From contig NZ_CP102332.1 of assembly GCF_024600715.1 (NCBI RefSeq), positions 5,766,001 to 5,830,000 on the forward strand: a DNA stretch of 64,000 bases, in the 5' to 3' direction. Positions 3,080-57,723 of this stretch are shown in pieces. Each line of letters starts with the position of its first letter. The stretch's first letter is position 1. This DNA comes from Streptomyces changanensis (GTDB lineage Bacteria; Actinomycetota; Actinomycetes; Streptomycetales; Streptomycetaceae). Under the pieces are notes generated by a model. It was not told where the DNA came from. It made no database searches and saw nothing but the letters and a program-made list of their open reading frames with translations. A program made the translations under genes and the position numbers.

Positions 3080-4054
3080 TCAGCCGGCGGCGCGGGCCGC
3101 CATCCGGGCCTTGCGCGCGGCCAGCTTCTCGTCGAACTTGGACGCCTCCGCGTCCAGCCCGTTCATGTAGAGGCCCAGCTCCTCCTGGGCCTTCAGGCCC
3201 TCCGGGCCGAGCCCGTCGATCTCCAGCACCTTCAGGAACCGCAGCACCGGCTGGAGCACGTCGTCGTGGTGGATCCGCATGTTGTAGATCTCGCCGATCG
3301 CCATCTGCGCCGCCGCCCGCTCGAACCCCGGCATGCCGTGGCCCGGCATGCGGAAGTTCACGACGACGTCCCGCACCGCCTGCATCGTGAGGTCCGGGGC
3401 GAGCTCGAAGGCCGCGCCCAGCAGGTTGCGGTAGAAGACCATGTGCAGGTTCTCGTCGGTCGCGATGCGCGCCAGCATCCGGTCGCACACCGGGTCGCCC
3501 GACTGGTGGCCGGTGTTGCGGTGCGAGATGCGGGTGGCGAGCTCCTGGAAGGCGACGTACGCCACCGAGTGCAGCATCGAGTGGCGGTTGTCCGACTCGA
3601 AGCCCTCACTCATGTGGGCCATCCGGAACTGCTCCAGCTTGTCCGGGTCCACGGCCCGCGAGGCGAGCAGGTAGTCACGCATGACGATGCCGTGCCGGCC
3701 CTCCTCGGCTGTCCAGCGATGGACCCAGGTGCCCCAGGCGCCGTCCCGGCCGAAGAGCGTGGCGATCTCGTGGTGGTAGCTCGGCAGGTTGTCCTCGGTG
3801 AGCAGGTTCACCACCAGGGCGATCCTGCCCACGTCGGTCACCTTCGACTGCTGCGGATCCCACGGCTCCCCGTCCTCGAAGAGGCCCGGGAAGTTCCGGC
3901 CGTCGGACCACGGCACGTACTCGTGCGGCATCCAGTCCTTGACGACCTTGAGGTGCCGGTTCAGTTCCTTCTCGACGACCTCTTCCAGCGCGTACAGCAG
4001 TCGGGCATCGGTCCAGTCCGCCGAACTGCCGAGGTGGGGAGAGGTGAGGGTCAC
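3080..4054 (-). CDS. acyl-ACP desaturase (ferritin-like di-iron enzyme)
   Basis: A 324-residue type-2 fatty-acid desaturase of the acyl-[ACP] desaturase family (DesA-like). It is a helical soluble di-iron protein; metal-binding blocks appear as EEGRHG (TAEEGRHGIVMRDYL) and DENLHM (ATDENLHMVFYRN). It would introduce a double bond into acyl-ACP using ferredoxin and oxygen, adjusting membrane fluidity. The GTG at 4054 is chosen because AGGAG sits six bases upstream; an ATG at 4078 would overlap the operator region and has no RBS. The promoter carries two tandem TetR-type operators, so repression by a TetR regulator encoded elsewhere is likely. Confidence 0.92.
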   Translation of the reverse strand: MTLTSPHLGSSADWTDARLLYALEEVVEKELNRHLKVVKDWMPHEYVPWSDGRNFPGLFEDGEPWDPQQSKVTDVGRIALVVNLLTEDNLPSYHHEIATLFGRDGAWGTWVHRWTAEEGRHGIVMRDYLLASRAVDPDKLEQFRMAHMSEGFESDNRHSMLHSVAYVAFQELATRISHRNTGHQSGDPVCDRMLARIATDENLHMVFYRNLLGAAFELAPDLTMQAVRDVVVNFRMPGHGMPGFERAAAQMAIGEIYNMRIHHDDVLQPVLRFLKVLEIDGLGPEGLKAQEELGLYMNGLDAEASKFDEKLAARKARMAARAAG

Positions 4055-48895: not shown

Positions 48896-48976
48896 GGGGT
48901 CGCCTCCCGATCAGGTTGGTGACTGCCTTCCGAGCGGTCAGTCAACTACGGGTGGGGGGTATGGGCAAGCTGAGGT

Positions 48977-48991
48977 TGAACACCGTTGTCA
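48977..48991 (-). promoter_or_regulatory. candidate Zur box upstream of zitB
   Basis: TGACAACGGTGTTCA (minus strand), five of seven pairs symmetric, close in form to the actinobacterial Zur palindrome (TGAAAAT-type half sites). It is centred 89 bp before the zitB start codon. In S. coelicolor Zur binding upstream of zitB activates it, so the location is meaningful. Confidence 0.5.
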
Positions 48992-49163
48992 TCCCCTCTG
49001 ACCTGGGCGTCCTCACCCGGGCGGCCCGCAGTCCCGGCCGCTGTCCCGGCCCGCCCACCGCCGCTGCCGGCCACCGCCGCCGGCCACCCCGACGGCGCCT
49101 TTGCGCCCGCGCGCGGACGCCCGCGGCGGGTGCGTCCCCGACCTGGAGTTTGTCGGCCGGGGC

Positions 49164-49183
49164 GATCATCGAGGATGATGATC
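49164..49183. promoter_or_regulatory. inverted repeat GATCATC-N6-GATGATC
   Basis: Perfect seven-base arms, about 145 bp before the CDP-alcohol operon. The surrounding 48992-49327 is otherwise GC-rich and gene-free, with possible -10 CGATAG near 49247. Confidence 0.4.
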
Positions 49184-49327
49184 CCGCCGCCGGTCGGACC
49201 GCTCCCGTCCGCGCAAACCCTCGGTGAACCCGCTCTTCCGTTCATCCGATAGCCTCAGCCGACGTGCCGCCGCCCGCCCGGGCCGAGCCACCGCACACCA
49301 GCCGTCAGGTCCAAGGAGTGAGTTCGT

Positions 49328-51259
49328 CTGTCGACCGCCATCCTCACCGGTCCGCCGGTACCCGGATCGCCGCTCGAGGGCGATCTGCGGTCGCTGGGCT
49401 TCGAGGTCCGCTCCGCCGCGGGCCCGGGCGAGACCGCCGCGCTCCTCGCCGCCGTACCGGCCGGTGAGCGCGTCGCCGTCGTCGACCCGCGCTTCGTCGG
49501 GCACCTCCACGCGCTGCGCCTGGCGCTGACCGACCCCCGCTTCCCGGCGGCGGCGGCGCCCGGCGCCCTCACCGCGCAGCCCGAGGCCCGCCCGTCCCTC
49601 ACCCGCGCCCTGACCGCCCGGGTCCCCGGCTCCGGCTCCGCGCCCGACCCCGGTTCCGCCCAGGTCCCCGGCTCCGCGCCGGTCGCCGCGCCCACCACCG
49701 CCTCCGGAGCCGCGCCCACCACCGCCCCCGAGGCGGGCGGCGCGCGGGCCGGCGGCGCGTCCGCGGGCGGTACGCCCCCGCTGCCCGACACGCTCGCCAC
49801 CGCCCTGGAGGCCGACGGCGTCGCCGTGCACCGGCCCGAGCTCGGCTCGCTCGTCGCCGCGGTACCGACCGGTCCCCAGGCCCGCAAGGAGACCCGGGAC
49901 GCCGTCGCCGCCGTCGACGACGAGGCCGTACGCCTGCGCTCCGCCGTGAAGTCCCGTGACGGCTTCTTCACCACGTTCTGCGTCAGCCCGTACTCCCGCT
50001 ACCTCGCCCGCTGGTGCGCCCGCCGGGGCCTCACGCCCAACCAGGTCACCACCGCCTCGCTGCTGACCGCGCTCGTCGCGGCCGGCTGCGCCGCGACCGG
50101 CACCCGCGGCGGCTTCGTCGCGGCGGGCGTCCTGCTCCTCCTCTCCTTCGTCCTGGACTGCACCGACGGGCAGCTCGCCCGCTACTCCCTGCAGTACTCG
50201 ACGCTCGGCGCGTGGCTCGACGCCACCTTCGACCGCGCCAAGGAGTACGCCTACTACGCGGGCCTCGCCCTCGGCGCCGCCCGCGGCGGGGACGACGTCT
50301 GGGCGCTGGCCCTCGGCGCGATGGTCCTCCAGACCTGCCGGCACGTCGTGGACTTCTCCTTCAACGAGGCCAACCACGACGCCACCGCCAACACCAGCCC
50401 CACCGCCGCCCTCTCCGACCGGCTCGACAGCGTCGGCTGGACGGTCTGGGTGCGGCGCATGATCGTCCTGCCGATCGGGGAGCGCTGGGCGATGATCGCG
50501 GTGCTCACCGCCGTCACCAGCCCCCGCGTCGTCTTCTACGCCCTGCTCGTCGGCTGCGCCTTCGCCGCCTGCTACACCACCGCCGGCCGGGTCCTGCGCT
50601 CGCTGACCCGCCGGGCCGGCCGCACCGACCGCGCCGCCCGGGCCCTCGCCGATCTCGCCGACGGCGGCCCGCTCGCCGAGCTCGCCGCCCGCGCGACCCG
50701 TCGCTGGGCCCGCCCGCTGGGCGGCCGCACCCCGTACGCGGTGCTCGGCGCGGCCCTGCTCCTGTACGCGGCGTGCGCCGCGCCCGTCGGCAGCGGCCTC
50801 GTCGTCGCGGCGGCCGCCGCGTACGCGCTGGCCTCCGGCGCCGCCGTCGCCCGGCCCCTGAAGGGCGCCCTCGACTGGCTCGTCCCGCCCGTCCTGCGCG
50901 TCGCCGAGTACGGCACGATCCTCGTCCTGGCCGCCCGCGCAGACGCCCCCGGGGCGCTCCCCGCGGCGTTCGGGCTGGTCGCGGCCGTCGCCTACCATCA
51001 CTACGACACGGTGTACCGCATCCGCGGCGGCACCGGCGCGCCGCCCGTCTGGCTGGTGCGGACGCTCGGCGGCCAGGAAGGGCGCACGCTGCTCGTGGCC
51101 GTCCTCGCCGCCCTCCTCGCGGCGGGTGGTGGGGAGCGCCTCGCCCTGGCGCTGACCGCCCTCGCCGGCGCCGTCGCGCTGGTGGGGCTGGCGGAGTCCA
51201 TCCGCTTCTGGGTGTCCTCCCACGCACCCGCCGTACACGACGAAGGAGAACCCGCATGA
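49328..51259 (+). CDS. CDP-alcohol phosphotransferase with an N-terminal extra domain (CTG start)
   Basis: A 643-residue membrane protein. Residues about 1-85 (LSTAILTGPPVPGSPLEG..., VAVVDPRFVGHLHALRLAL) form a nucleotidyltransferase-like globular domain, then a low-complexity linker, then the CDP-alcohol phosphotransferase core with the complete motif D277-C-T-D280-G-x2-A-R, G294, D298 and D302, and about eight further hydrophobic helices. The frame has a TGA at 49319 and no ATG/GTG/TTG until 49826, yet the conserved part begins at CTG 49328, nine bases after AAGGAG. It would transfer an alcohol phosphate from a CDP carrier. First gene of the seven-gene operon. Confidence 0.8.
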   Translation: MSTAILTGPPVPGSPLEGDLRSLGFEVRSAAGPGETAALLAAVPAGERVAVVDPRFVGHLHALRLALTDPRFPAAAAPGALTAQPEARPSLTRALTARVPGSGSAPDPGSAQVPGSAPVAAPTTASGAAPTTAPEAGGARAGGASAGGTPPLPDTLATALEADGVAVHRPELGSLVAAVPTGPQARKETRDAVAAVDDEAVRLRSAVKSRDGFFTTFCVSPYSRYLARWCARRGLTPNQVTTASLLTALVAAGCAATGTRGGFVAAGVLLLLSFVLDCTDGQLARYSLQYSTLGAWLDATFDRAKEYAYYAGLALGAARGGDDVWALALGAMVLQTCRHVVDFSFNEANHDATANTSPTAALSDRLDSVGWTVWVRRMIVLPIGERWAMIAVLTAVTSPRVVFYALLVGCAFAACYTTAGRVLRSLTRRAGRTDRAARALADLADGGPLAELAARATRRWARPLGGRTPYAVLGAALLLYAACAAPVGSGLVVAAAAAYALASGAAVARPLKGALDWLVPPVLRVAEYGTILVLAARADAPGALPAAFGLVAAVAYHHYDTVYRIRGGTGAPPVWLVRTLGGQEGRTLLVAVLAALLAAGGGERLALALTALAGAVALVGLAESIRFWVSSHAPAVHDEGEPA

Positions 51260-51993
51260 TCGGCCTCGTACTGGCAGCCGGTGCCGGACGCCGTCTGCGC
51301 CCCTACACCGACACGCTCCCGAAGGCCCTCGTGCCGGTGGACGGGGACACCACGGTCCTCGACCTGACCCTGCGCAACTTCGCCGAGGTCGGCCTCACCG
51401 AGGCCGCGATCGTCGTCGGCTACCGCAAGGAGGCCGTGTACGCGCGCAAGGAGGAGCTGGAGGCCACGTACGGCCTGTCGCTCACCCTGATCGACAACGA
51501 CAAGGCCGAGGAGTGGAACAACGCCTACTCCCTGTGGTGCGCCCGTGAGGTCCTGAAGCGGGGCGTCATCCTCGCCAACGGCGACACCGTGCACCCGGTC
51601 TCCGTCGAGAGGACCCTCCTCGCCGCCCGGGGCGAGGGCCGGAGGATCATCCTCGCGCTCGACGCGGTGAAGGACCTCGCCGACGAGGAGATGAAGGTCA
51701 TCACCGCCGACGGCGAGGGCGTCCGACGGATCACCAAGCTCATGGACCCCGCCACCGCCACCGGCGAGTACATCGGCGTCACCCTCATCGAGCCGGAGGC
51801 CGCCGAGGACCTCGCGGACGCGCTGCGGACCACCTTCGAGCGGGACCCGGACCTCTACTACGAGGACGGCTACCAGGAGCTGGTGGACCGGGGCTTCCGG
51901 ATCGACGTGGCGCCCATCGGCGACGTCAAGTGGGTCGAGATCGACAACCACGACGACCTCGCGAAGGGCCGTGGGATCGCGTGCCTGTACTGA
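51256..51993 (+). CDS. LicC-like CTP:phosphoalcohol cytidylyltransferase
   Basis: A 245-residue nucleotidyltransferase of the sugar-nucleotide/phosphocholine cytidylyltransferase fold. The nucleotide loop is LVLAAGAGRRLRPYTDTLPKALVPV; NNAYSLWCAREVL and YYEDGYQELVDRG recall LicC, and VKWVEIDNHDDLA closes the active site. It should activate a phosphorylated alcohol as a CDP derivative, supplying the two CDP-alcohol phosphotransferases. Start overlaps the upstream stop by four bases. The substrate may be glycerol-1-phosphate made by the next gene; this is inference. Confidence 0.88.
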   Translation: MIGLVLAAGAGRRLRPYTDTLPKALVPVDGDTTVLDLTLRNFAEVGLTEAAIVVGYRKEAVYARKEELEATYGLSLTLIDNDKAEEWNNAYSLWCAREVLKRGVILANGDTVHPVSVERTLLAARGEGRRIILALDAVKDLADEEMKVITADGEGVRRITKLMDPATATGEYIGVTLIEPEAAEDLADALRTTFERDPDLYYEDGYQELVDRGFRIDVAPIGDVKWVEIDNHDDLAKGRGIACLY

Positions 51994-53042
51994 CCCGGCT
52001 CATCCCCTCGCCGGTCGTCGTCGACATCAGCTGCGGAGCGATGGACGACCTGGCCGGCCTCCTCGCCGACCAGCGGATCTCCGCCTCCGGCAAGCTCGCC
52101 GTGGCGATCAGCAACGGCTCCGGGCAGGCGCTGCGCGAGAAGCTCGCGCCGCTGCTCCCGGACGCCGACTGGTACGCCGTGGCCGACGGCAGCATCGACT
52201 CCGCCGTCCGTCTCGCCGACGCCATGAGGGGCAAGCGGTACGACGCCGTGGTCGGCCTCGGCGGCGGCAAGATCATCGACGTGGCGAAGTACGCCGCTGC
52301 GCGGGTCGGCGTGCCCATGGTGTCGGTCGCGACGAACCTGTCGCACGACGGCATCTGCTCGCCGGTCTCCACCCTCGACAACGACAACGGCCGCGGCTCC
52401 TACGGCGTCCCCTCGCCGATCGCCATGGTCATCGACCTCGACGTGATCCGGGACGCCCCGGCGCGGTTCGTCCGCTCCGGCATCGGCGACGCGATCTCCA
52501 ACATCTCGGCCATCGCCGACTGGGAGCTGTCGCACCGGCACACCGGCGAACAGGTCGACGGCCTCGCCGCCGCCATGGCCCGCACGGCGGGTGAGGCGGT
52601 GCTGCGCCACCCGGGGAGCGTCGCGGACGACGAGTTCCTCATCGTGCTGGCCGAGGCCCTCGTCCTGACCGGCATCGCCATGTCGATCAGCGGCGACACC
52701 CGTCCCGCGTCGGGCGCCTGCCACGAGATCTCCCACGCCTTCGACCTGCTCTACCCGGCGCGTTCCGCGCTCCACGGCGAGCAGGTCGGCCTCGGCGCCG
52801 CCTTCGCCATGCACCTGCGCGGCGCCCGCGAGGAGTCGTCGCTCTTCGCCGAGGTCCTGCGCCGGCACGGCCTGCCGGTGCTGCCCGAGGAGATCGGGTT
52901 CTCCCCGGACGAGTTCGTGCGCGCCGTCGAGTACGCGCCGCAGACCCGCCCGGGGCGCTTCACCGTCCTGGAGCACCTCGACCTGTCCACCGACCAGATC
53001 AGGGACGCGTACGCCGACTATGCCAAGACCATCCGTAGCTGA
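51981..53042 (+). CDS. sn-glycerol-1-phosphate dehydrogenase family protein (EgsA/AraM-like)
   Basis: A 353-residue member of the iron-containing alcohol dehydrogenase superfamily, clearly of the glycerol-1-phosphate dehydrogenase branch: GLGGGKIIDVAKYAAARVGVPMVSVATNLSHDGICSP matches the archaeal GGG.xIDVAK...SHDGIASP pattern. The metal ligands are Asp in SGIGDAISN, His in CHEISHAFD and His in LHGEQVGLG. It would reduce dihydroxyacetone phosphate to sn-glycerol-1-phosphate, the archaeal stereoisomer. GTG start; 13-bp overlap upstream and 23-bp overlap downstream indicate one operon. A different C3 or polyol substrate remains possible. Confidence 0.85.
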   Translation: MPVLTRLIPSPVVVDISCGAMDDLAGLLADQRISASGKLAVAISNGSGQALREKLAPLLPDADWYAVADGSIDSAVRLADAMRGKRYDAVVGLGGGKIIDVAKYAAARVGVPMVSVATNLSHDGICSPVSTLDNDNGRGSYGVPSPIAMVIDLDVIRDAPARFVRSGIGDAISNISAIADWELSHRHTGEQVDGLAAAMARTAGEAVLRHPGSVADDEFLIVLAEALVLTGIAMSISGDTRPASGACHEISHAFDLLYPARSALHGEQVGLGAAFAMHLRGAREESSLFAEVLRRHGLPVLPEEIGFSPDEFVRAVEYAPQTRPGRFTVLEHLDLSTDQIRDAYADYAKTIRS

Positions 53043-53799
53043 ACTCCGCCCGGTCGTCCATCCGGCCGGGGTCAAGGACCGCCGCAGCGGAGAGCACTGG
53101 GGCGGCCGCCTCTACATGCGCGAGATCTCCCTGCGCATCACCCGGCTGCTGGTCACCACGCGGGTCACCCCGAACCAGCTGACGTACGTGATGACCCTCG
53201 CGGGCGTCCTCGCCGCTCCGGCGCTGCTGGTCCCGGGCATCCCGGGCGCGCTCCTCGGCGCGCTGATGGTCCAGCTCTACCTGCTGCTCGACTGCGTCGA
53301 CGGCGAGGTCGCCCGCTGGAAGAAGCAGTTCTCGCTCTCCGGCGTGTACCTGGACCGGGTCGGCGCCTACCTGTGCGACGCGGCGGTCCTCGTCGGCTTC
53401 GGCCTGCGCGCGGCCGACCTGTGGGGGAGCGGCCGGATCGACTGGCTGTGGGCCTTCCTCGGCACCCTCGCCGCGCTCGGCGCCATCCTCATCAAGGCGG
53501 AGACCGACCTCGTCGGCGTCGCCCGTCACCAGGGCGGCCTGCCGCCCGTGAAGGAGGCCGCGGCCGAGCCGCGCTCGTCCGGCATGGCGCTCGCCCGCAG
53601 GGCCGCCGCCGCGCTGAGGTTCCACCGGCTCGTCCTCGGCATCGAGGCGTCGCTGCTCATCGTGGTGCTGGCCGTCGCGGACACGGTCCGGGGCGACCTC
53701 TTCTTCAGCCGCCTGGGCGTCGCCGTCCTCGCCGCCATCGCCCTGCTGCAGACGCTGCTGCACCTGGTGTCCGTCCTCGTGTCCAGCAGGCTGAGGTGA
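53020..53799 (+). CDS. second CDP-alcohol phosphotransferase-like membrane protein
   Basis: A 259-residue membrane protein with the family core at D91-C-V-D94-G-E-V-A-R99, G108 and D112, but the fourth catalytic aspartate position, expected at 116, is Ala (GVYLDRVGAYLCD). In characterised enzymes this Asp is the general base, so catalysis may differ or be lost. Helices MTLAGVLAAPALLVPG, LMVQLYLLLDCVD and later pairs give about six membrane passes. It overlaps the preceding gene by 23 bp. Partner of the larger phosphotransferase in the same operon. Confidence 0.8.
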   Translation: MPRPSVAELRPVVHPAGVKDRRSGEHWGGRLYMREISLRITRLLVTTRVTPNQLTYVMTLAGVLAAPALLVPGIPGALLGALMVQLYLLLDCVDGEVARWKKQFSLSGVYLDRVGAYLCDAAVLVGFGLRAADLWGSGRIDWLWAFLGTLAALGAILIKAETDLVGVARHQGGLPPVKEAAAEPRSSGMALARRAAAALRFHRLVLGIEASLLIVVLAVADTVRGDLFFSRLGVAVLAAIALLQTLLHLVSVLVSSRLR

Positions 53800-53803
53800 C
53801 GCC

Positions 53804-54676
53804 GTGAAGCTCGGTGCCGTCATCATCACCATGGGCGACCGCCCCGACGACCTGAACGCCCTCATCGAGTCCGTCGCCCGCCAGGAGGGCGAGCCGGTCG
53901 AGGTCGTCGTCGTCGGCAACGGCGCCCCCGTCCGCGGGGTCCCCGGCTGGGTCCGCACCGTCGACCTGCCCGAGAACCTCGGCATCCCCGGCGGCCGGAA
54001 CGTCGGCATCGAGGCGTTCGGCCCGAACGGCTCCGACGTCGACGCGCTGCTCTTCCTCGACGACGACGGGCTGCTCCCCGGCAAGGACACCGCGGAGCTC
54101 CTGCGGGCCGCGTTCGCCGCCGACCCGCGGCTCGGGATCGTCAGCTTCCGCATCGCCGACCCGGAGACGGGCGTCACGCAGCGGCGCCACGTGCCCCGGC
54201 TGCGCGCCTCCGACCCGATGCGCTCCTCGCGCGTCACGACCTTCCTGGGCGGGGCGAGCGCCGTGCGCACGAAGGTCATCGCCGAGGTGGGGCCCCTGCC
54301 GGGCGAGTTCTTCTACGCGCACGAGGAGACCGACCTCGCCTGGCGGGCGCTGGACGCCGGCTGGATGATCGACTACCGGTCCGACATGGTGCTCCACCAC
54401 CCCACGACCGCCCCGTCCCGGCACGCCGTCTACCACCGCATGGTGGCGCGGAACCGGGTGTGGCTGGCCCGCCGCAACCTGCCGGCGCCGCTGGTCCCGG
54501 TGTACGTCGGGGTGTGGCTGCTGCTGACCCTGCTGAGGCGCCCGTCGGGGGCCGCGCTGAAGGCGTGGTTCGGGGGCTTCAAGGAGGGCTGGACGACCCC
54601 CTGCGGGCCGCGGCGCCCCATGAGGTGGCGCACGGTGTGGCGCCTCACGCGACTGGGCCGCCCGCCCGTCATCTGA
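53804..54676 (+). CDS. GT2 family glycosyltransferase
   Basis: A 290-residue GT-A fold glycosyltransferase. It starts KLGAVIITMGDRPDDLNALIESV, has the GIPGGRNVGIEAF donor loop, LLFLDDDGLL (DxD-type metal site) and EVGPLPGEFFYAHEETDLAWRALDAGW, as in rhamnosyl- or galactosyl-transferases of surface polysaccharides. The C-terminal LVPVYVGVWLLLTLL suggests membrane attachment. GTG start five bases after the previous stop region. It would add sugar to the lipid- or polymer-linked intermediate. Confidence 0.88.
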   Translation: MKLGAVIITMGDRPDDLNALIESVARQEGEPVEVVVVGNGAPVRGVPGWVRTVDLPENLGIPGGRNVGIEAFGPNGSDVDALLFLDDDGLLPGKDTAELLRAAFAADPRLGIVSFRIADPETGVTQRRHVPRLRASDPMRSSRVTTFLGGASAVRTKVIAEVGPLPGEFFYAHEETDLAWRALDAGWMIDYRSDMVLHHPTTAPSRHAVYHRMVARNRVWLARRNLPAPLVPVYVGVWLLLTLLRRPSGAALKAWFGGFKEGWTTPCGPRRPMRWRTVWRLTRLGRPPVI

Positions 54677-54784
54677 CAAGCTCGGATCCGGCGGCCCGGC
54701 CGCCCCCGGGGACGGGCCGCCCCCGCCCCGGGGACCGGGCCGCACCCCACCGCCCCCGCATCGTGAACACGAAAGTTTCGACCT

Positions 54785-55714
54785 GTGAGTGAGACGACCC
54801 GCGACCGAGCGGTCGCCGTGAGTGTCCCGCCCTCGCCCGACGACGGCCTGTCGCCGGCCGAGCTGGCCGCCAAGTACGGCCTGTCGGTGAGCGGCGCCCG
54901 TCCGGGGCTGGCGGAGTACGTCCGGCAGCTGTGGGGTCGGCGCCACTTCATCATGACGTTCTCCCGGGCGAAGCTCACGGCCCAGTACAGCCAGGCCAAG
55001 CTCGGCCAGCTGTGGCAGGTGGCGACGCCGCTGCTGAACGCCGCGGTCTACTTCGCGATCTTCGGGTTGATCCTCGAAGCGGGCCGGGGCATGGACAAGA
55101 AGGTCTACGTCCCGTTCCTGGTGACGGGCGTCTTCGTCTTCATGTTCACGCAGACGTCCGTCATGTCCGGCGTGAAGTCGATCTCCGGCAATCTGGGCCT
55201 GGTGCGGGCGCTGCACTTCCCCCGGGCCGCGCTGCCCATCTCGCTGGCGCTCCAGCAGCTCCAGCAGCTGCTGTACTCGATGCTGGTGCTCTTCGTCATC
55301 GTGGCGCTGTGCGGCAGCTACCCCTCGCTCAGCTGGCTGCTGATCGTCCCCGCGCTGGTGCTCCAGTTCCTCTTCAACACCGGCCTGGCCATGATCATGG
55401 CGAGGCTCGGCAGCAAGACGCCGGACCTCGCCCAGCTGATGCCGTTCATCATGCGGACCTGGATGTACGCCTCGGGCGTCATGTTCTCCATCCCGATCAT
55501 GCTGCGGGACAAACCGGCCTGGATCGCCGACGTCCTGATGTACAACCCGGCGGCCGTCTACATGGACCTCATCCGCTTCGCGCTGATCGAGGGCTACACC
55601 TCCGACAACCTGCCCGACCACGTGTGGCTCGCCGCGCTCCTGTGGGCGGTCGTCGTCGGCGTCGCCGGTTTCGTGTTCTTCTGGAAGGCTGAGGAGCGGT
55701 ACGGCCGTGGCTGA
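54785..55714 (+). CDS. ABC-2 polysaccharide export permease (TagG/Wzm-like)
   Basis: A 309-residue ABC-2 permease with six hydrophobic helices. FIMTFSRAKLTAQYSQAKLGQLWQVATPLLNAAVYFAIFGLIL is the cytoplasmic gate helix and first membrane segment typical of TagG/Wzm; the C-terminal half has IMRTWMYASGVMFSIPIMLRD and YNPAAVYMDLIR. It forms the channel for an undecaprenyl- or lipid-linked glycan. GTG start after a 108-bp gap that contains CGAAA-G-TTTCG and GC-rich hairpins, perhaps an internal promoter. Confidence 0.92.
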   Translation: MSETTRDRAVAVSVPPSPDDGLSPAELAAKYGLSVSGARPGLAEYVRQLWGRRHFIMTFSRAKLTAQYSQAKLGQLWQVATPLLNAAVYFAIFGLILEAGRGMDKKVYVPFLVTGVFVFMFTQTSVMSGVKSISGNLGLVRALHFPRAALPISLALQQLQQLLYSMLVLFVIVALCGSYPSLSWLLIVPALVLQFLFNTGLAMIMARLGSKTPDLAQLMPFIMRTWMYASGVMFSIPIMLRDKPAWIADVLMYNPAAVYMDLIRFALIEGYTSDNLPDHVWLAALLWAVVVGVAGFVFFWKAEERYGRG

Positions 55715-56510
55715 CGAGACCAACGAAGCCCGCCCCGCGGGCTCGCGCATCCCCACCGTCATCGCCGACGACGTGCACATCGTGTACCGCGTCCACGGGG
55801 GCGGGTCGGCCGGCCGGGGCAGTGCCACGGCCGCCCTCAGCCGCATGCTCCGCGGCGAGAAGGGCGAGAGCCGCGGCGTCCGCACGGTCCACGCCGTGCG
55901 CGGAGTCACCTTCACCGCCTACCGCGGCGAGGCCATCGGCCTCATCGGCACCAACGGCTCCGGCAAGTCGACCCTGCTGCGGGCCATCGCCGGGTTGCTG
56001 CCCACCGAGCGGGGCAAGGTCTACACCGACGGCCAGCCCTCGCTGCTGGGCGTCAACGCGGCCCTGATGGGCGACCTCACCGGTGAGCGCAACGTGATCC
56101 TCGGCGGTCTCGCCATGGGCATGTCCCGCGAGGAGGTCAAGGAGCGCTACCAGGACATCGTCGACTTCTCCGGCATCAACGAGAAGGGCGACTTCATCAC
56201 CCTCCCCATGCGGACGTACTCCTCCGGCATGGGCGCCCGGCTCCGCTTCGCCATCGCGGCCGCCAAGAACCACGACGTCCTCATGATCGACGAGGCGCTG
56301 GCCACCGGCGACCGCAAGTTCCAGATCCGCTCCGAGGAGCGCATCAGGGAGCTGCGCAAGGAGGCAGGCACGGTCTTCCTCGTCAGCCACAGCAACAAGT
56401 CGATCCGGGACACCTGCGACCGCGTCCTGTGGCTGGAAAAGGGCGAACTCCTCATGGACGGGCCGACCGACGAGGTCCTCCGGGCGTACGAGAGGGAGAC
56501 CGGCAGGTAG
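55707..56510 (+). CDS. ABC-type polysaccharide export ATPase (TagH/Wzt-like)
   Basis: A 267-residue ATPase overlapping the permease gene by eight bases. Walker A is GTNGSGKST (about residue 88), the signature region TYSSGMGARLRFAIA, and Walker B VLMIDEALATGDRKF, all close to TagH/Wzt. It lacks the C-terminal carbohydrate-binding domain of some Wzt proteins, so substrate selection probably lies in the permease or lipid end. Together the two proteins would flip the finished glycolipid or polymer to the outer face. Confidence 0.93.
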   Translation: MADETNEARPAGSRIPTVIADDVHIVYRVHGGGSAGRGSATAALSRMLRGEKGESRGVRTVHAVRGVTFTAYRGEAIGLIGTNGSGKSTLLRAIAGLLPTERGKVYTDGQPSLLGVNAALMGDLTGERNVILGGLAMGMSREEVKERYQDIVDFSGINEKGDFITLPMRTYSSGMGARLRFAIAAAKNHDVLMIDEALATGDRKFQIRSEERIRELRKEAGTVFLVSHSNKSIRDTCDRVLWLEKGELLMDGPTDEVLRAYERETGR

Positions 56511-56752
56511 CCCGGCGAGCCCCGCCGAACCGCGCGGACGGCGCAGGTCAGGGCGGCGGAGCCGGTGCGCCCGCCGTCCCGGACGCCCTCGCGTGCCACG
56601 CGCGGAGCCCCTGGCCGGGTCGCGGGGCGTGCTCGGCGTAAGCTGTAGCGGTTCTGATTCGCGCCATGTGTGGTGATAGGTCCGAGGGGCCGGCGGCGTG
56701 TCCGAAATGGGATGTATTGGGTCCGCAGTGTAGAACGGGAGACGTGACGGCC
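56511..56752. other. intergenic region upstream of the hopanoid operon
   Basis: About 240 bp, less GC-rich around 56630-56740 (GGTTCTGATTCGCGCC, GGGATGTATTGGG), which probably holds the hopanoid promoter. No confident -35/-10 pair was found. Confidence 0.4.
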
Positions 56753-56815
56753 ATGACGGAGAACCCCCCACGCGCCGAGGGTCCCGCCGTCCCCGCGACG
56801 GGCAGCGCGCAGTGA
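56753..56815 (+). CDS. candidate 20-residue ORF coupled to hpnC
   Basis: MTENPPRAEGPAVPATGSAQ, whose TGA overlaps the hpnC GTG (GTGA at 56812-56815). A GGGAG lies about ten bases upstream. The overlap suggests it could couple ribosomes onto hpnC, which otherwise lacks a good RBS. Conservation would decide. Confidence 0.35.
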   Translation: MTENPPRAEGPAVPATGSAQ

Positions 56816-57723
56816 CGGCTGTCCGGCAGGCGCGCCCCGACGCCACCGCGCGTACCACGCTCGACAAGGCCGCGGCCGAGAACTTCCCCGTGGCCCCCTT
56901 CTTCCTGCCCCGCGCCTGGCGCGCCGACCTCATGGCCGTCTACGGCTACGCCCGGCTCGTCGACGACATCGGCGACGGCGACCTGGCTTCCGGCGGGGCC
57001 GACGCCCGCCACCTCGGCGCCGACCCCGACGCGGACCCCTCCGCCCTGCTCGACGCCTTCGAGGCCGACCTTCTGCGGGTCTTCGACGCCTCCGGCGCCC
57101 CCTCCCACTCGCTGCTGCGCGCCCTGCGGCCCACCGTGCGCCGCCACGCCCTGACCCCCGAGCCGTTCCTCGCGCTCGTCGAGGCGAACCGCCAGGACCA
57201 GCACGTGCGCCGCTACGCCGGCTACGGCGACCTGGTCGCCTACTGCGAGCTCTCCGCCAACCCCGTGGGCCGGCTCGTCCTCGCGATCACCGGCACCACC
57301 ACCCCCGAGCGCGTCCGCCGCTCCGACGCCGTCTGCACCGCCCTGCAGATCGTCGAACACCTCCAGGACGTCGCCGAGGACCTCGGCCGCGACCGGATCT
57401 ACCTGCCCGCCGAGGACATGGCCCGCTTCCACGTCACCGAGGCCGACCTGGCCGCCCCCACCGCCGGCGCCGCGGTCCGGGCGCTCGTCGCGTACGAGGC
57501 GCGGCGGGCCCGCGCCCTGCTGGAGGAGGGGGCGCCGCTCGTCGCGAGCGTGCGCGGCCGGCTCCGGCTGCTGCTCGCCGGGTTCGTCGGCGGCGGCCAC
57601 GCGGCACTCGACGCCATCGCGGCCGCCCGCCACGACGTGCTCCCCGAACCGCCCAGGGCCACCGGGCCCCGCCTGCTCCGCCGGGCGGGAGCGGTGTGGC
57701 GAACAGCGTGCAGAGAGGGGTGA
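56812..57723 (+). CDS. hpnC: hydroxysqualene synthase HpnC
   Basis: A 303-residue trans-isoprenyl-diphosphate-synthase-like protein. The two aspartate-rich motifs are YARLVDDIGDGD and EHLQDVAEDLGRDRIYLPAEDM. In the HpnCDE route HpnC converts presqualene diphosphate to hydroxysqualene. It begins the operon hpnC-hpnD-hpnE-polyprenyl synthase-shc-hpnG. GTG start overlaps a tiny upstream ORF. The soluble enzyme acts at the membrane face. Assignment as HpnC rather than HpnD rests on its first position and EHLQDV motif. Confidence 0.93.
   Translation: MTAVRQARPDATARTTLDKAAAENFPVAPFFLPRAWRADLMAVYGYARLVDDIGDGDLASGGADARHLGADPDADPSALLDAFEADLLRVFDASGAPSHSLLRALRPTVRRHALTPEPFLALVEANRQDQHVRRYAGYGDLVAYCELSANPVGRLVLAITGTTTPERVRRSDAVCTALQIVEHLQDVAEDLGRDRIYLPAEDMARFHVTEADLAAPTAGAAVRALVAYEARRARALLEEGAPLVASVRGRLRLLLAGFVGGGHAALDAIAAARHDVLPEPPRATGPRLLRRAGAVWRTACREG

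Follow-up and report, generated by a model that had tools for sequence, protein, structure and literature searches.

A block of seven genes, here called g1 to g7, fills positions 49328 to 56510 of a 64,000-nucleotide stretch of DNA from Streptomyces changanensis (RefSeq assembly GCF_024600715.1, contig NZ_CP102332.1, positions 5,766,001 to 5,830,000); the whole stretch is called the window below, and the genome from which it comes has a size of 6.9 Mb. The genes encode a CDP-alcohol phosphotransferase (CDP-AP), a LicC-like cytidylyltransferase, a homologue of archaeal-type sn-glycerol-1-phosphate dehydrogenase (G1PDH), a second protein of CDP-AP fold, a glycosyltransferase, and the permease and ATPase of an ABC exporter (Table 1). 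The block is real, conserved and mostly uncharacterised, and its chemistry is of the CDP-glycerol or teichoic type rather than a new category.

Organisation and conservation of the block

All seven open reading frames are co-directional and were found exactly where the first-pass annotation of this DNA had placed them, including its overlaps of 4 bp (g1/g2), 13 bp (g2/g3), 23 bp (g3/g4) and 8 bp (g6/g7). The two remaining junctions are gaps, of 4 bp between g4 and g5 and 108 bp between g5 and g6, and third-position GC is 0.96–0.99 in every gene. We infer that g1 to g7 lie on one transcript. A chance arrangement is excluded, because the block is conserved across Streptomyces, as described below.

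The 5' end of g1 has no in-frame ATG, GTG or TTG nearby. In an alignment of 12 Streptomyces-type sequences (the window included), position 49328 is CTG in seven and TTG in five, which bears out the start given there. In the promoter-like element upstream, the GGTGAA and ATC-GATA columns are invariant in 12/12, with a spacer one base shorter in two sequences (L151 and L152). The pattern GTGAAC-N17-CGATA has only two sites genome-wide, one of them being that upstream of g1; the other (L159) is directed away from what looks by eye like an SMC gene. We take the element to be possibly a promoter of the extracytoplasmic function (ECF) sigma type. A sigma-70 scan of 48900–57000 gave no site.

Table 1 Features of the seven-gene block (positions in the window)
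Feature	Position	Strand	Basis
Promoter-like element GGTGAAC-N16-CCGATA, upstream of g1	49223..49251	+	12-sequence alignment
Ribosome-binding site AAGGAG of g1	49313..49318	+	Sequence; GGAGTGA invariant in 12/12 aligned
g1: N-terminal alpha/beta domain (nucleotidyltransferase-like), CDP-alcohol phosphotransferase and DUF5941; CTG start	49328..51259	+	Pfam, motif, model
g2: LicC/IPCT-like CTP:phospho-alcohol cytidylyltransferase	51256..51993	+	Pfam, NCBIfam, PDB 1jyk
g3: glycerol-1-phosphate dehydrogenase (EgsA/AraM) homologue; GTG start	51981..53042	+	NF002022, PDB 4rgq/5fb3
g4: CDP-alcohol-phosphotransferase-fold protein without fourth motif aspartate	53020..53799	+	Pfam, alignment, model
g5: GT2 family glycosyltransferase	53804..54676	+	Pfam PF00535, 34 bits
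g6: ABC-2 polysaccharide-exporter permease, TagG/Wzm type	54785..55714	+	Pfam PF01061
g7: ABC exporter ATPase, TagH/Wzt type	55707..56510	+	NF010066 TagH best-hit group

Conservation was examined in 101 Streptomyces genomes, the source genome included. DUF5941, g3 and g4 have matches in all 101, g7 and the hopanoid gene hpnC in 100 each, and DUF5941 in none of 14 control genomes. DUF5941 and g4 start no more than 2.6 kb apart in 100/101 (in the exception, G020, they are on two contigs, with DUF5941 at a contig end), g7 is within 3 kb of g4 in 96/101, and in a set of 29 Streptomyces loci g2 is always directly beside g3. In Streptomyces the genes are thus conserved together, which is one of the two points on which the first-pass annotation had staked its proposal.

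Beyond Streptomyces, 84 loci were analysed, several of which end at contig ends. They comprise 66 loci (the best 80 of 572 g3 matches, minus 14 of Streptomyces type) and 18 hand-picked from the g3 matches of a phylum sample, and since both sets were chosen by a g3 match they describe the surroundings of g3 and not the frequency of the block. In the phylum sample, g3 at E ≤ 1e-20 occurs in 41/296 genomes (nine of them Streptomyces) and in 1/17 of the other same-class genomes listed; g2 at E ≤ 1e-40 occurs in 72/296 class genomes, of which 28 are Streptomyces. The 66 loci include metagenome-assembled Microthrixaceae, Nitriliruptoraceae and Thermoleophilia, and isolates of Micromonospora, Actinoplanes, Nocardiopsis, Nonomuraea and Actinomadura. 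In 64 of them g2 immediately precedes g3, and in 60 the gene that follows g3 is of the CDP-AP family (36 of g4 type, 19 others and five recognised by motif); g5 is present in 34 and g1 lies upstream in 32. In the 18 picked loci, g2 immediately precedes g3 in 14, g4 directly follows g3 in four and another CDP-AP does so in two, and 13 have a CDP-AP somewhere in the locus. All four Nocardiopsis/Streptomonospora loci seen (L093, L094, L108, L121) have g2 to g5 and an exporter. The conserved core is therefore g2, g3 and a CDP-AP, found also in distant Actinomycetota, with the glycosyltransferase and the exporter added or placed differently; many related soil bacteria thus have part of the block. 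A far relative (L058) has g2, a G1PDH and an intact-motif CDP-AP amid genes that by eye resemble shikimate-pathway, translation and recombinase genes.

The proximity of the hopanoid operon had been taken as a hint of a shared role in the envelope. In Streptomyces hpnC is indeed close, within 7.3 kb of g4 in 93/101 genomes, with distances of 8–23.5 kb in four others (G055, G058, G069 and G096). Outside Streptomyces it was found in 0/84 loci (0/66 and 0/18), contig-cut loci among them, and the hopanoid neighbour was observed solely in loci of Streptomyces type, Wenjunlia included. A general partnership with hopanoids is accordingly rejected. The sole Rfam match in the window is ASdes (RF01781, 64 bits, 3636–3703), a small RNA family from tuberculosis (TB), and lies outside the block.

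The encoded proteins

The g2 protein is a LicC-like cytidylyltransferase: it belongs to the Pfam family NTP_transferase, its nearest solved relative is LicC (1jyk, E 6.5e-13), and it carries the nucleotide-binding signature LxAGxGxRLxPxTxxxPKxL, which is kept in 83/85 relatives, one of the two exceptions being a contig-cut fragment.

The g3 protein matches Pfam Fe-ADH_2 with 106.7 bits (cut-off 28). Against NF002022, the archaeal G1PDH model, its score is 249 bits, far above the 94 bits on glycerol dehydrogenase, though below the curated cut-off of 413 for NF002022, for which reason it is called here a G1PDH homologue. The PDB matches include the Methanocaldococcus jannaschii enzyme 4rgq (E 2.9e-43) and 5fb3 (E 7.2e-37), and the alignment to both keeps the RP-SG segment and the putative metal ligands Asp, His and His, residues that we presume to have this role. 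The signature [ST]RPxSG..H...H is present in 95/100 g3 homologues, and missing from L093, L094, L108, L125 and L142. No fusion of g3 was seen among 120 listed of 3370 protein-search matches, those named being from Streptomyces.

In g1, Pfam identifies the families CDP-OH_P_transf and DUF5941. The complete eight-residue motif DxxDGxxAR(x8)GxxxDxxxD is present as DCTDGQLARYSLQYSTLGAWLDATFD, the only such match in the six frames of the window. The structural model has a predicted local distance difference test score (pLDDT) of 87, and Foldseek with g1 places AF2299 at ranks 1–4, followed by PIP synthase constructs, with IPCT-DIPPS at rank 7. For g1 and g4 alike, AF2299 is the top PDB match and IPCT-DIPPS is among the next, with TM-scores (target length) of 0.41–0.55. 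No Foldseek match of the whole g1 model was traced to DUF5941, and no paper with this domain name was found in the open-licence literature searched. Outside Streptomyces, DUF5941 can be encoded as its own gene between g1 and g2 (L092, Pfam, 92 bits), and by similarity a stand-alone gene is also present in L053 and L054. A domain that is separate elsewhere and fused in Streptomyces suggests that DUF5941 and the rest of g1 work together.

An unexpected finding concerns g4. Its match to CDP-OH_P_transf is weak (27.7 bits, cut-off 22), and its AlphaFold2 model (pLDDT 87) finds AF2299 as best PDB match with E 4.9e-7. At residue 116 (codon 53365–53367), Ala replaces the fourth aspartate of the motif (D4). 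Of 56 g4 homologues in loci L053–L152, 39 have His here, 17 have Ala and none has Asp; the Ala type comprises ten Streptomyces-type loci and seven of Nonomuraea, with His in the other 39. The remaining seven motif residues are intact in 30/30 aligned sequences. The gene is not decaying, because it is matched in 101/101 Streptomyces, where the best copy is 70–100% identical. The earlier description of two CDP-AP-family proteins therefore holds for g1, with its full motif, and for the fold of g4, but g4 lacks a defining aspartate of the family.

In Mycobacterium tuberculosis PgsA1, the equivalent residue D93 is a ligand of Mg-2 and presumably the base (PMC6506517). Work on PSS names the D4 aspartate as a potential base candidate, and prefers a water activated within its network (PMC8633023). 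Some members of the g4 family may employ His as a base or ligand, g4 may have become a partner of g1 with a structural role, or a base may not be needed for its acceptor. No report of a g4-like loss of D4 was found in the open-licence literature searched. A second g4 match is present in 7/101 Streptomyces. Paralogues outside the block, 52–53% identical and with Ala at D4, occur in G095, G040 and G011 (L155–L157); the other block genes were not recognised nearby, and L155 ends at a contig end.

The assignment of g5 to the GT2 glycosyltransferases is confirmed by its Pfam match. By Pfam, g6 and g7 are an ABC-2 permease and its ATPase. The best NCBIfam matches of g7 are TagH and galactan-exporter models, every one below its cut-off (175 bits on NF010066 TagH, cut-off 320). 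The genome also encodes a paralogous permease/ATPase pair, about 9 kb away from TagF-type genes, to which g6 is 58% and g7 71% identical; exporter pairs of this kind directly adjoin TagF-type genes in G009 and G003 (L158, L169, L189). The proposed TagGH-type exporter is thus borne out by the families and the paralogue, short of the NF010066 cut-off, and the location of the paralogous pairs near TagF-type genes suggests a teichoic-type product as the cargo of g6/g7.

A predicted pathway and its alternatives

On the basis of the observed gene presence, order, families, conservation and motif states, the absence of GGGPS from the sample and the paralogy of the exporter, we hypothesise that the product of the operon is a surface (glyco)lipid or teichoic-type polymer that contains phosphoglycerol, is built on sn-glycerol-1-phosphate (G1P) and is exported, a reading that we consider somewhat more likely than not. 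Every substrate and every product named here is a prediction. The g3 enzyme would use NAD(P)H to reduce dihydroxyacetone phosphate (DHAP), yielding sn-G1P, and g2 would couple this to CTP, giving a CDP-glycerol of opposite handedness to the TagD product. From this CDP-glycerol g1, a membrane enzyme that may form a heteromer with the non-canonical g4, would then pass sn-glycerol-1-phosphate to a membrane-bound acceptor; a sugar would be added by g5, before or after this transfer, and the product would be flipped outward by g6/g7, itself a second copy of the wall-teichoic-acid exporter. IPCT-DIPPS likewise uses a CDP-activated small alcohol, as its name indicates. In favour of the scheme we also count, among the 84 non-Streptomyces loci, 31 with an IspD-like cytidylyltransferase gene and 15 with a TagF-type gene; 13 of the latter were matched with the L092 query, whose own match to PF04464 is partial (41 bits).

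This chain from G1PDH through cytidylyltransferase and CDP-alcohol transfer to export had already been proposed in the first-pass annotation, as what would be new chemistry. The chain gains from g2–g3 being the most conserved pair of the block, from the absence of GGGPS and from the exporter paralogy; the claim of novelty has to be narrowed, given that dehydrogenase-made G1P is known in bacteria from Bacillus subtilis AraM (PMC5059525). A G1P–CDP pathway was not found in the open-licence literature searched, a search that may miss subscription papers.

Several points weigh against the proposal. No polymerase could be recognised in the block. The g3 score falls short of its curated cut-off, and g4 appears to be without a catalytic residue. 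One locus (L055) has g3-g4-g5 without g2 or any intact-motif CDP-AP in 19.9 kb, which counts against g4 as a partner of g1, unless that genome has a g1 at another place. Outside Streptomyces, g6 and g7 are present in only 8/66 and 2/18 loci, and L060, L062, L063, L066, L068, L125, L137, L142 and the short L077 have g2-g3 and no recognisable CDP-AP. Finally, COG1213 enzymes, the LicC type, take varied substrates, and the member CpgD gave no product with glycerol-1-phosphate (PMC12275187).

Another use of G1P has been suggested for Streptomyces. Coleman et al. (2019; PMC6431249) note that some Streptomyces species hold genes for G1PDH, GGGPS and DGGGPS and may make archaeal-like lipids, and G1P from g3 could in the same way be prenylated to archaeal-type ether lipids. 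A search for PcrB/GGGPS (PF01884) that succeeded in 7/14 control genomes found it in 0/101 Streptomyces, the source genome included, and in 0/8 other genomes of the order; these absences cover the sampled species, and Streptomyces outside the sample may differ. The 29/29 direct pairing of g2 with g3 also speaks against prenylation. Ether lipids are therefore rejected, for the sampled Streptomyces, as a very improbable product, and the combination of a G1PDH with a cytidylyltransferase and CDP-APs but no GGGPS indicates, contrary to that suggestion, CDP-glycerol formed from sn-G1P. A Kennedy-type route, with CDP-sn-glycerol-1-phosphate and diacylglycerol giving phosphatidylglycerol or a head-group-modified phospholipid, would fit the CDP-AP fold of g1 and g4 and would give the natural phosphatidylglycerol stereochemistry, in line with established lipid chemistry; it would leave the GT2 enzyme and the TagGH-type exporter superfluous, and we consider it distinctly unlikely.

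It is somewhat less improbable, if still unlikely, that g3 and g2 feed extra CDP-glycerol to the TagF wall-teichoic-acid pathway, leaving g1, g4 and g5 with only decoration or a linkage unit. TagF-type genes, and a TagGH paralogue, do lie elsewhere in the source genome, away from the block. A second g3 match is present in 5/101 Streptomyces, and in a few Streptomyces a g2-g3 copy lies between rne and rplU (L137, L161–L165; only g3 was found in L162, and L165 ends within g2). TagF-type genes are near this rne-rplU-obg copy in L137, L162, L163 and L165, whereas the copy in L161/L167 has none nearby, and L164 ends at obg. TagF-type genes are also near obg in 4/12 control genomes without a second g3 (G004, G005, G010, G012), so that the association is only suggestive. 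Moreover, CDP-glycerol of the TagD type is the opposite enantiomer. It may also be that the reductase and the cytidylyltransferase use another small phospho-alcohol and make a CDP-polyol other than CDP-glycerol. The varied substrates of COG1213 (PMC12275187) and the missed NF002022 cut-off allow for this, as does an IspD-like cytidylyltransferase gene in 31/84 non-Streptomyces loci (L092 and L118 have it as a fusion with a short-chain dehydrogenase, L093 does not); these IspD-type genes could be CDP-ribitol genes or encode the isoprenoid enzyme. Since no other NCBIfam model comes near the G1PDH model in its score for g3, and the RP-SG-H-H signature of g3 is kept in 95/100 homologues, we regard this reading as unlikely.

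Lipoteichoic acid and comparison with known systems

If the G1P-based scheme is true, the block would supply as a cytosolic donor exactly the enantiomer found in lipoteichoic-acid units: lipoteichoic acid of Firmicutes consists of sn-glycerol-1-phosphate units, and TagD-derived polymers of the other enantiomer. Thermobifida fusca belongs to the same family as Nocardiopsis and Streptomonospora. Lipoteichoic acid has been reported in T. fusca, that of Streptomyces hygroscopicus is a poly-glycerophosphate, and sequenced actinobacterial genomes have no clear LtaS orthologues (PMC3196553). We therefore raise, very tentatively, the idea that the block is an LtaS-independent actinobacterial route to lipoteichoic acid, or its lipid-linked phosphoglycerol part, with cytosolic CDP-sn-glycerol-1-phosphate providing the units, the TagGH duplicate exporting the product, and g4 active with His or with no acidic residue. 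The same paper favours a pathway common to wall teichoic acid, the polymers being alike, which speaks against this idea as much as it leaves room for it. Also against it, the block shows no polymerase, and CDP-APs usually add a single unit. No description of CDP-sn-glycerol-1-phosphate as a donor was found in the open-licence literature searched.

The question of lipoteichoic acid made without LtaS thus gains named genes and a stereochemical prediction. Bacterial G1PDH would, if the scheme is true, gain another job, namely the supply of activated glycerol phosphate, as against the source of archaeal-like lipids considered in the literature. The His or Ala that stands in g4 for a presumed catalytic base bears on the mechanism of CDP-alcohol phosphotransferases. 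Besides bacterial G1P made by AraM, part of the Streptomyces synteny is already in print: a 2026 paper (PMC13118837) describes a syntenic region with crtB, tagH, tagG, araM, a CDP-AP, a GT2 gene and a nucleotidyltransferase, which it connects with the biosynthesis of teichoic acid and with secondary metabolism. In its accessible text a G1P route is not among the proposals and the name DUF5941 does not occur.

The block resembles several known systems, each in part. With the AraM/EgsA G1PDHs (B. subtilis AraM, M. jannaschii 4rgq), g3 shares the sequence family, the putative Asp/His/His ligands and RP-SG; it differs in adjoining a cytidylyltransferase and CDP-APs, in the absence of GGGPS/PcrB from the sampled Streptomyces and in its score below the NF002022 cut-off. 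IPCT-DIPPS and AF2299 likewise combine a cytidylyltransferase-like domain with a CDP-AP, whereas the block has in addition DUF5941, a second CDP-AP without D4, and an exporter. The IPCT-DIPPS route is paired with an inositol-phosphate synthase, where the block has a dehydrogenase gene. With the TagD-TagF-TagGH route to wall teichoic acid the block has in common the logic of CDP-glycerol and a paralogous ABC exporter, but it contains a membrane CDP-AP in place of TagF, and its donor is predicted to be the opposite enantiomer. The poly-glycerophosphate lipoteichoic acid made by LtaS in Firmicutes would share its sn-glycerol-1-phosphate units with the predicted product; LtaS acts by extracellular transfer from phosphatidylglycerol, in contrast to the cytosolic CDP donor and export envisaged here. 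In the CpgD system for ceramide diphosphoglycerate in Caulobacter (PMC12275187), a COG1213 enzyme and a CDP-three-carbon donor again serve a surface lipid, with phosphoglycerate there in the place of the glycerol phosphate proposed for the block.

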